From positions 806,001-870,000 of the forward strand of contig NZ_CAKASL010000001.1 in NCBI RefSeq assembly GCF_916858655.1: 64,000 nt of DNA, given 5' to 3'. This DNA comes from Aeromicrobium sp. Leaf350 (GTDB lineage: Bacteria > Actinomycetota > Actinomycetes > Propionibacteriales > Nocardioidaceae). The translations under genes were made by a program, and so were the position numbers. This document shows, one piece after another, positions 10,574-12,953 of this stretch; positions within the stretch are counted from its first letter, which is position 1; every line of letters starts with the position of its first letter. A model generated the notes under the pieces. That model did not search any database. It saw only the letters and a list, made by a program, of their open reading frames with translations, and had not been told where the DNA came from.

Positions 10574-10588
10574 CGCCTCGCTCGCCTG
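10574..10588. repeat. Target-site duplication, left copy (15 bp)
   Basis: CGCCTCGCTCGCCTG occurs here and again exactly at 12635-12649, directly outside the two ends of the element between them. It is read on the minus strand as the codons Q-A-S-E-A in the interrupted gene. Confidence 0.85.
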
Positions 10589-10615
10589 TGCCATCTCGCA
10601 GGTCTTCGGTGACAG
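10589..10615 (+). repeat. Left terminal inverted repeat of the element
   Basis: 27 bp starting TGCCATCTC and ending TCGGTGACAG. It matches the right terminus (12634-12608, minus strand) at 20 of 27 positions without gaps. A further GGTGACAG copy lies subterminally near 10660, like multiple transposase-binding sites. Confidence 0.75.
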
Positions 10616-10848
10616 TTTCGAATCAGCACATCGGTGACGATCCGGAGACTTCTCCCGGTGACAGTTCGACGTTAGATCGCATCCTCCGGCTCTTCGACTC
10701 AGCCCCAGCAGTCGGCAGTCATATACGCCACAGCCGACCGATTTCGGACGGGCGATGGTGAGCCGCCCGGAACTCTCAGTTGCGCGAGGTGTCGGGACCG
10801 GGTGCGATACTCGGACGAGGCAGAGGAAGCACCGGGGGTGCACGTGAG

Positions 10849-11457
10849 ATGGACCGACGGAACCTGAAGCGCCATAGCGGCTGCGTCGCAGCCGTGTTCC
10901 TTCTAACGGCCAGCCTGGCCGCGTGCAGCGGCGAAGACGGTCCTTCTCCATCTCCATCCCCGATCTCGAGCTCACCGCCGACGGCCGCGCCTGACTGGGT
11001 GAACAACTTCTCCGAGACTCAGGTCGAGGCCGCGCACGAGGCCATCGACTTTCTCCATTCGTACGACGCGAAGATCAACGACTTTCTCGAGGCCGGCCGG
11101 GCCACGCCCGACGTCCTCGCGTACTTGCAGGACACTCACGCGGACTGGCCTGCTGTCTGGGATCAATTCATGAAGGCAGAGGCCGAAGGTCGCACCACGA
11201 CGAGGCAACCGGGATGGGACGCGAAGACCACGCCCACCGAGGTGATGGTGACGCCGGAGGACTCTGTCGTGGTCACCATCACGCGCTGCATCGACCCGAG
11301 CAAGATCGCCGACTACATCGATGGCGTCGCACAACTGCAGCCAATCACCGGGTACTACGAGCAGATCGTCGGATTGGAGCGCGACACGACAGGCACGTGG
11401 AAGGTCAGCGACATCTCTACCGACCCACAGGCGACCTGCGATCTCCCAGTGGGTTGA
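10849..11457 (+). CDS. Cargo gene: predicted lipoprotein of unknown function
   Basis: 202 residues from ATG 10849. A basic start (MDRRNLKRHSG), a hydrophobic stretch and the lipobox LAAC with Cys26 predict a lipoprotein. A Ser/Pro linker (residues about 30-45) leads to a globular domain with no family I recognise. An in-frame ATG at 10780 would add 23 residues ahead of the signal peptide and is less likely. Base composition is lower in GC than the neighbours, and the gene lies inside the 10589-12634 element, consistent with transfer. It is convergent with the next cargo gene. Confidence 0.75.
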   Translation: MDRRNLKRHSGCVAAVFLLTASLAACSGEDGPSPSPSPISSSPPTAAPDWVNNFSETQVEAAHEAIDFLHSYDAKINDFLEAGRATPDVLAYLQDTHADWPAVWDQFMKAEAEGRTTTRQPGWDAKTTPTEVMVTPEDSVVVTITRCIDPSKIADYIDGVAQLQPITGYYEQIVGLERDTTGTWKVSDISTDPQATCDLPVG

Positions 11458-11543
11458 ACCTCGTCCTGCCGCTCTCTGCTGGACTGACGTTAGCTGCGGT
11501 GCCGATACAGGAGCCTGCAGCCCGGAAGGCGAGCGTCAGGGCA

Positions 11544-12029
11544 TCACGGGAGAGCTGACGTTGAGTCCAGCTGCTTGAACGACGAGAGGTCGTTGCAGCC
11601 GTTCAGGGTGGCCTTGGAAGCGAACCAGCCCCCAGCTGGAGCCTGGTCAACGACGTAGGTGCCGCCGGCGTGCTCGACCCAGACCGGGGCTCTCTTGGAG
11701 GCCGGTCCGAAGGGAGTCTCGATGATGGTGTCGGCCGTCGCCTCCGGGACGATCTCCCGCAAGGCTTCCAGCACGGTCGCCGCGCCGGGAGTCTTGTCGT
11801 CGGGGAAGCGTTCGACGATCAGGTCGGGAACCTCATCGGCCTCACACAGCAGTGACCCGGCCGTCTTCTCGATCGGGGGCGACGGTTCTTGCTCAGAGGC
11901 CGCGACGACGGTGTCAGGTCCCCCGCTATCAGGCGATTCGCCGTCGAAAGCCACTGCGCTAGAGGCGATGGCTACCAGGGCGAAGACGCCGCCGGCCGCC
12001 GCCACTCGCTGGGCAACGTTCAACTTCAT
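11544..12029 (-). CDS. Cargo gene: predicted secreted protein of unknown function
   Basis: 161 residues. The N-terminus (KLNVAQRVAAAGGVFALVAIASSAVAF) is a signal peptide or anchor, followed by an acidic Ser/Pro-rich linker and a small domain containing two cysteines (LLCEADEVPDLI; LNGCNDLSSF) that could form a disulfide. A segment AGGTYVVDQAPAGGWFASK is the most distinctive part. I do not recognise the family. It lies 15 bp after the SH3-like gene and is likely co-transcribed with it. Confidence 0.65.
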   Translation of the reverse strand: MKLNVAQRVAAAGGVFALVAIASSAVAFDGESPDSGGPDTVVAASEQEPSPPIEKTAGSLLCEADEVPDLIVERFPDDKTPGAATVLEALREIVPEATADTIIETPFGPASKRAPVWVEHAGGTYVVDQAPAGGWFASKATLNGCNDLSSFKQLDSTSALP

Positions 12030-12044
12030 GTCAAATCCCCGTTC

Positions 12045-12350
12045 TTATGCGCAGTAGACAGTTGGGACGTAGATGGCGAGATACGCGTTGCTCGACCAGC
12101 CGCGAACCCCCGTGGCCCGGTTGGTGTGGTTGCCCCAGCCGCTCTGGGTGTACCACAAACAGATCCCCTGACCGGGGTACCCGAGGCCGACTGAGGTGTA
12201 TCCGGTGCCGGCGCCGGTGCGAATTTTGACGCCGGTCGCGGTGTAGTCACCAGATCGGTAGGCCCACGCCGCCGAAGACGGGACGGTCACGAGGAGAGCC
12301 AGAACGAACGCTACGACCCATCGGATTGATCTGTGGTGCGATGTCCGCAT
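12045..12350 (-). CDS. Cargo gene: small secreted SH3-like protein
   Basis: 101 residues from ATG 12350, preceded by GGGAGGCTTC, a strong ribosome binding site. A signal peptide ends near VPSSAAWA. The mature part (GVKIRTGAGTGYTSVGLGYPGQ, then a Trp-rich WYTQSGWGNH and WSSNAYLAIY) resembles a bacterial SH3 (SH3b) domain, a fold that binds peptidoglycan or other envelope peptides. Cysteines in ICLWY and at the C-terminal YCA could pair. The frame is open to 12410, but the ribosome binding site and signal peptide fix this start. Confidence 0.75.
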   Translation of the reverse strand: MRTSHHRSIRWVVAFVLALLVTVPSSAAWAYRSGDYTATGVKIRTGAGTGYTSVGLGYPGQGICLWYTQSGWGNHTNRATGVRGWSSNAYLAIYVPTVYCA

Positions 12351-12558
12351 GAAGCCTCCCAAGTAAGAACCGTCAAACCGCAGCGTTACACCAGTCACAC
12401 AACCCATCAACGCTGACAGTGAAATTCGGCTTGGTTCGGACGGAAGTTGTCACCTGGGTGACAAAAACGGTCTGCCCCGAGCACACCCGACTAGTCCCGG
12501 GCACGCGATACGTCGGCAACGGACGTCGCCGCGGCCCACGATCGAAACACACCCCACC

Positions 12559-12580
12559 GTCACCCAAGTCCTGAGACATC
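12559..12580. repeat. Subterminal direct repeat of the element
   Basis: A 22-bp sequence of form GTCACC-N5-CCTGAGACATC that recurs 51 bp away at 12610-12631, inside the right terminus; it begins GTCACC and ends CTGAGACATC in both copies. Paired subterminal sites of this kind usually bind a transposase. Confidence 0.6.
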
Positions 12581-12607
12581 GAGCGGCACCCATGTCGCGA
12601 TACAGAC

Positions 12608-12634
12608 CTGTCACCGATCTCCTGAGACATCACA
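12608..12634 (-). repeat. Right terminal inverted repeat of the element
   Basis: On the minus strand it starts TGTGATGTCTC and ends TCGGTGACAG. It also encodes the last residues (CDVSGDR) and stop of the interrupted gene at 12943. Confidence 0.75.
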
Positions 12635-12943
12635 CGCCTCGCTCGCCTGGGCCCATCGTCGCGCCGCCTCCGCCGCGGCCGCCGCCACGAGGCCGGCGAG
12701 CTCGGGCCGCTCCGGCACGGGGAACGACGTGTACGCCCCACGACCCCCGGCCGTCGGGCGCCCGTAGGCCTTGGCCGCGAGACTGCCGTCGGGCAGCATC
12801 CGGATCGTGATCGACGTCAGCCGGAACTCCTCGCCTCGCCGCTCGTCGGTCCACTGAAGGTCTTCCGGCACGGCGACGTTGGCGGCCAGCGCATTGACCT
12901 GAACGGCGTCCACGCTCCGACCGTACGCGACACCGGTGGCCAC
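12611..12943 (-). CDS. Hypothetical protein with C-terminus replaced by the insertion
   Basis: 110 residues from GTG 12943. The protein is soluble, with a central LTSITIRMLPDGSLAAKAYGRPTAGGRGAY segment and an Ala-rich C-terminal helix (AAAAAEAARRWAQASEA). The final CDVSGDR and the TGA stop come from the end of the mobile element. Removing the element would give ...AQASEATRPQA and a TAG at 10558-10556. So only the last few residues changed, and the gene may still work. It is divergent from the gene at 12966. I do not recognise a family. Confidence 0.6.
   Translation of the reverse strand: MATGVAYGRSVDAVQVNALAANVAVPEDLQWTDERRGEEFRLTSITIRMLPDGSLAAKAYGRPTAGGRGAYTSFPVPERPELAGLVAAAAAEAARRWAQASEACDVSGDR
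12635..12649. repeat. Target-site duplication, right copy (15 bp)
   Basis: Identical to 10574-10588. It abuts the right terminus at 12634. Confidence 0.85.
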
Positions 12944-12953
12944 CGTCGCGCCC

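Follow-up and report, generated by a model that had tools for sequence, protein, structure and literature searches.

Mobile insertion cassettes (MICs) have been described as elements with inverted ends of an IS type, usually flanked by a target duplication, in which the position of the transposase is taken by other genes (PMC3913671, PMC2909200, PMC3129680). They are a known kind of element (PMC3913671, PMC3129680), reported also from an actinobacterium (PMC2909200). MIC231A1, which carries an endopeptidase gene, is described as mobilizable in trans by the IS231A transposase (PMC3913671, PMC2909200, PMC3129680). In the IS481 family, ISArsp8 from an Arthrobacter plasmid is presented with ends reading TGTGATCTCTCAGAACATCG... 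and a 15-bp direct repeat (PMC6305408), while TnRErm46 and ISArsp12 appear as members with cargo genes (PMC6794481, PMC6305408). The direct repeats given for the latter two, the 6-bp NCTAGN of TnRErm46 and CCTAGA of ISArsp12 (PMC6794481, PMC6305408), suggest to us that they belong to another branch of IS481. The cargo listed for other MICs and IS481 transposons in these descriptions serves drug resistance, regulation or transport, or consists of an endopeptidase, other enzymes or unknown proteins (PMC6794481, PMC3913671, PMC6305408, PMC2909200).

Here we analyse a cassette in the genome of Aeromicrobium sp. Leaf350, located in a stretch of 64,000 nucleotides that was analysed as a whole and is called the window below. 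As far as the published descriptions go, its anatomy is that of MIC231 of Bacillus cereus, of mic-qnrD and of the MIC with ISPfr11 termini of Propionibacterium freudenreichii. MIC231, however, belongs to the IS231 family, while the present cassette has IS481-type ends, a transposase tail and three exported-protein genes; and whereas MIC231A1 is described as movable in trans, the present cassette is a candidate for such movement. ISArsp8 resembles the cassette in the sequence of its IS481 ends and in the 15-bp direct repeat but is described as a full IS, with a transposase and without a passenger gene. TnRErm46 and ISArsp12 resemble it as IS481-family elements with cargo genes but, according to their descriptions, have kept the transposase. 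The P. freudenreichii genome paper, in its treatment of mobile elements, counts IS481 among the IS families of that genome and does not tie the cassette to IS481 (PMC2909200). Within the open-licence papers on MICs and IS481, a cassette of IS481 origin whose cargo is exported may not have been described.

Borders, target duplication and base composition

The element is bounded by imperfect inverted ends of 27 bp, identical at 20 positions, and the same 15-bp word, CGCCTCGCTCGCCTG, flanks it on both sides with no mismatch (Table 1). As a control for the direct repeat we drew 60-base stretches at random from the same window, in 2,000 pairs with a spacing of 2,060 bases. A common word of 15 bases was reached in none of the pairs; the longest one had 12 bases, and in 83 of the pairs the longest common word was one of 9-12 bases. 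The GC content of the element is 63.3%, compared with 71.1% for the window, and GC3 of the three cargo genes is 0.78-0.80 against 0.85-0.97 in four neighbouring frames, the interrupted frame included. Thus, the inverted ends with their borders, the perfect direct repeat and the lower GC content, all reported in the first-pass annotation, are upheld.

Table 1. Position of the cassette and its features in the window
Feature	Position	Strand	Remarks
Whole element	10589-12634		
Left target duplication copy	10574-10588	.	exact match to 12635-12649
Right target duplication copy	12635-12649	.	exact match to 10574-10588
Left end, IS481 type	10589-10667	+	27-bp terminal repeat and subterminal repeats; alignment of about 79 bp
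Left terminal repeat	10589-10615		TGCCATCTCGCAGGTCTTCGGTGACAG
Cargo gene 1, lipoprotein	10849-11457	+	202 aa; LAAC lipobox; tad-type-pilus-linked family
Cargo gene 2, small secreted protein	11544-12029	-	161 aa; relatives in two Nocardioides
Cargo gene 3, secreted SH3-like protein	12045-12350	-	101 aa; possibly cell-wall-binding; weak SH3 matches
Right end, IS481 type	12470-12634	-	terminal and subterminal repeats; 157 bp with 82% identity to G016:C15
Transposase remnant	12470-12574	+	final 34 codons plus stop codon of an IS481 transposase gene, VCPEHTRLVPGTRYVGNGRRRGPRSKHTPPSPKS-stop; 25/34 identical to L043 transposase
Right terminal repeat	reverse complement of 12608-12634		TGTGATGTCTCAGGAGATCGGTGACAG
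Interrupted open frame	12614-12943	-	3' end cut by the insertion; few genus matches

Relationship of the ends to IS481 elements

The 49 available genomes of the genus, the own one among them, were searched at the DNA level with a query extended 666 bases past the right border. Besides the cassette, 11 rows were listed for the right end, and 7 of them stop exactly at the last base of the element (12634). Among the remaining rows one ends 1 base further, one is 4 bases short, and two run 11-12 bases beyond. The left end gave three rows, which start at 10588 or 10589. In the genus, the matches fall on IS481 copies, on fragments of such copies or on isolated ends; the right end is also present in an IS on a Mycolicibacterium plasmid. 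Five IS481 copies or pieces of copies have left ends that align with that of the cassette over the length given in Table 1, and the identity listed there for the right end is the best reached with any known copy.

The terminal 27 bp on the right of the cassette are the same (27/27) as those of two IS481 copies, L043 and L044, of the congener G016. While left and right terminal repeats of the cassette agree at 20/27 positions, as do those of the L047 IS, the values for three other relatives are 24, 24 and 26. All six left ends compared are closer to the right end of the cassette (20-25/27) than to its left end (15-22/27), which indicates that the left end of the cassette has drifted. The word TCGGTGACAG is found nine times in the own genome: the two occurrences in the cassette are the only ones to sit in an IS-type end, and the seven outside it are not in such ends (12-17/27).

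Repeats of 15 bp with strict borders were also observed at two tandem copies in L047, at L128, and at L160 and L161; the IS of L128 is located on a Mycolicibacterium alvei plasmid. The full relative L044 has no repeat with strict borders and one of 13 bp when a one-base shift is allowed, and at four internally deleted IS481 copies a flanking repeat is absent (0-2 bp). Family-type ends and the duplication length of IS481 are both present in the cassette. The IS481-like character of the ends, which had been put forward from the cassette itself, is borne out by their match to real IS481 elements of the genus, several of which also have 15-bp repeats.

Transposase remnant

The right end region contains the end of an IS481 transposase gene (Table 1), whose similarity to the end of the L043 transposase has an E-value of 1e-12. 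The distance from its stop codon to the end of the element, 60 bp, is the same in L043 and L129, and is 35 bp in L044 and 79 bp in L128. When the L043 transposase was compared with the whole own genome at E-values up to 10, one match was obtained, the remnant itself (E 4.3e-9). The IS481 family model gave no match in the own genome, which is 99.97% complete; the same model does detect relatives of this IS481 group in G041 (E 4.5e-61).

Except for the C-terminal tail, a DDE transposase with an integrase core domain is absent from the cassette, and for this reason we treat it as a derivative of IS481 and not as a member of the family. The cassette had been called transposase-less: this is correct for the transposase gene, but the 34-codon tail has to be added to the picture. 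A full IS with the same ends, which the first-pass annotation had proposed to look for in this genome, did not appear, the remnant being the only transposase match. Given the tail and the lack of any other match in the own genome, the cassette is, to judge from its sequence, an IS481 in which the transposase body has been replaced by cargo.

Copy number and insertion site

The own genome contains one copy of the cassette, and the DNA search revealed no second site in the 48 other congeners, in plasmids or in phages. A match to the query was obtained in 45 of the 48 other genomes, with the best rows in the left flank. This search, and a comparison of the flanks with 29 left-flank loci of those genomes and four longer stretches, yielded no exact empty site among the 48. 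In four congeners (G018, G031, G032 and G041) the left flank joins, within about 10 bases, a sequence that starts near 12950 in the window, and both the cassette and the small interrupted frame are missing. As the interrupted frame is missing too, these joined flanks speak neither for nor against the first-pass annotation, which had proposed to look for empty sites in close relatives. The proposal that removal of the element restores the interrupted frame fared less well: joining the flanks exchanges no more than the last few residues of a 110-aa open frame, and relatives of this frame are nearly lacking in the genus, where, among 49 genomes, the own one and a single other gave a match, the latter with an E-value of 5.9e-4.

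Other members of the IS481 group

Of the right-end matches in the 294 genomes of the family, 30 loci were selected out of a longer list; the cassette itself is one of them. No second MIC was recognised among these 30 loci; several of them run into contig ends or have an end with no transposase close by, and one of five such regions examined is an isolated end. Four of the 30 are short copies (L140, L144, L155 and L156; 528-959 bp) that have kept both ends, with an internally deleted transposase and no flanking repeats. In L047:5909-13410 (G041), IS481 copies of 1,574 bp stand in tandem, separated by the same 15-bp word, so that one repeat is common to both; a third copy, with a flanking repeat of 14 bp, is apparently split by a further insertion.

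A 4,932-bp element is common to G031 and G041 (L160:4217-9148 and L161:145-5076). It combines an IS481-type transposase with signal peptidase II, a cadmium transporter and a P-type ATPase, and both copies have 15-bp repeats. These copies, 99.98% identical in two species and located at different sites, suggest that the group was active not long ago and that it transports cargo; they also suggest a recent transfer of this transposon between species. Together, the internally deleted copies and the 4,932-bp element indicate that members of this IS481 group can lose internal sequence as well as carry cargo.

Cargo genes

The reading frames of all three cargo genes are intact. Export signals, as well as the lipobox of gene 1, were read directly from the sequence and are found on all three, in agreement with the lipoprotein, secreted protein and secreted SH3-like protein named in the initial reading. 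A scan for promoters and terminators gave nothing above chance.

Gene 1 is 59% identical to a paralogue at a tad-type operon of the own genome and has matches, many of them weak, in 48 of the 294 family genomes (own genome included). In 23 of the 29 other loci retrieved from these matches, a neighbouring gene of one secreted-protein family lies within the same 3-kb stretch, and 21 of those 23 additionally have a CpaB/SAF gene. The paralogue locus in the own genome continues with T2SSE and T2SSF genes, and it is from these families that we read it as a tad-type pilus operon. Between gene 1 and the tad paralogue dN is 0.30 and dS, which is near saturation, 0.95; these values point to purifying selection on the gene 1 family. 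The own tad-type operon (L052, G000:C1:1418000-1437000) adjoins genes for a tyrosine integrase and an XRE/IrrE-type regulator, which gives it the look of belonging to an integrated island.

Gene 2 is matched in 3 of the 294 family genomes: the own genome and two Nocardioides. No Pfam family matched it at E-values up to 0.1, and a partial structure model (mean pLDDT 58.8) gave no fold match in the PDB at E-values up to 0.001 (best 0.38). In the two Nocardioides (L126 and L091), the gene-2 family is found near what look to be genes for Rieske-type proteins and uvr-type genes, these names being read from sequence. Gene 3 has matches in 4 of the 294 family genomes, own genome included, the best of the others at an E-value of 2.5e-6. 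Its similarities to SH3_3 (E 0.038, below the cut-off), to a phage amidase family (E 0.003) and to an SH3b structure (E 0.062) are weak, and its structure model is unusable (mean pLDDT 45.9). In Nocardioides sp. LHD-245, genes 3 and 2 form a chromosomal pair, adjacent, in the same order and on one strand; no IS-type ends were seen in the stretch retrieved around this pair, in which gene 3 follows the contig end by about 260 bases.

With gene 1 linked to tad-type operons and genes 2 and 3 paired in one Nocardioides, the cargo is, as far as gene neighbourhoods tell, a patchwork of families with two or more separate home contexts. For the same reason we did not adopt a fixed three-gene unit. Spread of the cargo by plasmids was rejected: in tblastn searches of plasmids, genes 1 and 2 had no match and gene 3 a single weak one (Streptomyces, E 8e-4). 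A phage origin was rejected, as phages contained no match to the cassette DNA (compared as nucleotides only) and viral contigs no relative of gene 2; a defence system was rejected as well, with no PADLOC match at E-values up to 0.1.

Origin of the cassette

What is seen directly are the features by which MICs are described: a pair of inverted ends belonging to an IS of known type, other genes replacing the transposase, and a target-site duplication identical at 15/15 positions. We consider it probable, from sequence comparison, that the element is a non-autonomous MIC derived from IS481 that was moved whole by a trans-acting IS481 transposase. The IS481 transposase gene would have been lost, save for its last 34 codons inside the right end region, and its place would have been taken by the three exported-protein genes. 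A transposase provided in trans, by co-entering DNA or by a donor since lost, would then have bound the repeats of both ends and moved the unit as a whole, leaving the 15-bp target duplication. With one copy, no cognate transposase here and no exact empty site in 48 congeners, movement in trans is something we infer, as are transposition as one unit and a benefit of the cargo. In favour of this explanation count the ends and the 15-bp repeat, both with counterparts in relatives, the tail in phase as the one transposase match here, the recent-looking activity and cargo of the 4,932-bp element, the internally deleted copies with both ends, and the purifying selection on the gene 1 family. Against it stand the single copy, with no second site in the 48 congeners, plasmids or phages, and the failure to find an exact empty site among those congeners; moreover, L044 has no strict-border repeat, the four deletion derivatives have 0-2 bp, and the left end of the cassette has drifted relative to the left ends of six relatives.

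Compatible with an IS481-derived MIC is the tentative possibility that the cassette moved once and is now immobile, owing to its ends or to the missing transposase, with genes that, by chance, have been retained or are in decay. The lack of a cognate transposase in a 99.97% complete genome and the drift of the left end from those of its relatives would fit such a remnant; three intact reading frames and a right terminal 27 bp identical to that of two real copies argue against it.

In an unlikely alternative, the 15-bp duplication arose when an ordinary IS481 inserted at this place, and recombination later swapped its transposase body for cargo; the cargo unit itself would never have jumped. 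The presence of the transposase tail, the single copy with no second site, and a right end that matches at best at 82% over 157 bp, which implies time for change, are all consistent with such a replacement in place. However, genes of two home contexts would have had to come together at this very site, with the ends on both sides left intact, and the 15-bp repeat is still perfect, although this is a weak point, the repeat being short.

Virtually no probability attaches to an ordinary lower-GC region flanked by similar sequences by chance: short repeats are common in GC-rich DNA, as the control pairs with 9-12-base words illustrate, but such an origin is refuted by the exact 15-bp repeat that no control pair reached, by matches to real IS ends, the majority of them breaking off at the border, and by a transposase tail in phase, and the restriction of TCGGTGACAG in IS-type ends to the two words of the cassette also speaks against it.

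Discussion

The new elements of the present analysis, relative to the first-pass annotation, are the 34-codon transposase tail and the patchwork nature of the cargo. The IS481-derived MIC seems to be a well-preserved cassette of an ordinary kind with an unusual cargo, which, by its signal sequences and families, looks made for the cell surface. We mention as a speculation, and regard as quite improbable, that the cassette ferries cell-surface parts between actinobacteria, namely an extra tad-pilus-linked lipoprotein and a secreted SH3-type pair, and is spread by neighbouring IS481 transposases. If this were true, the host surface would be changed or masked, for example in pilus function or in the attachment of phages or predators.

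The cassette also suggests how a carrier IS can be converted into an element of this kind. Survival of the 3' end of the transposase gene may be due to its overlap with the end on which the transposase depends. Full IS copies, internally deleted copies, a transposon with both transposase and cargo, and a cassette without a transposase gene all belong to one IS481 group and occur in one bacterial family, so that the steps of such a route can be compared.
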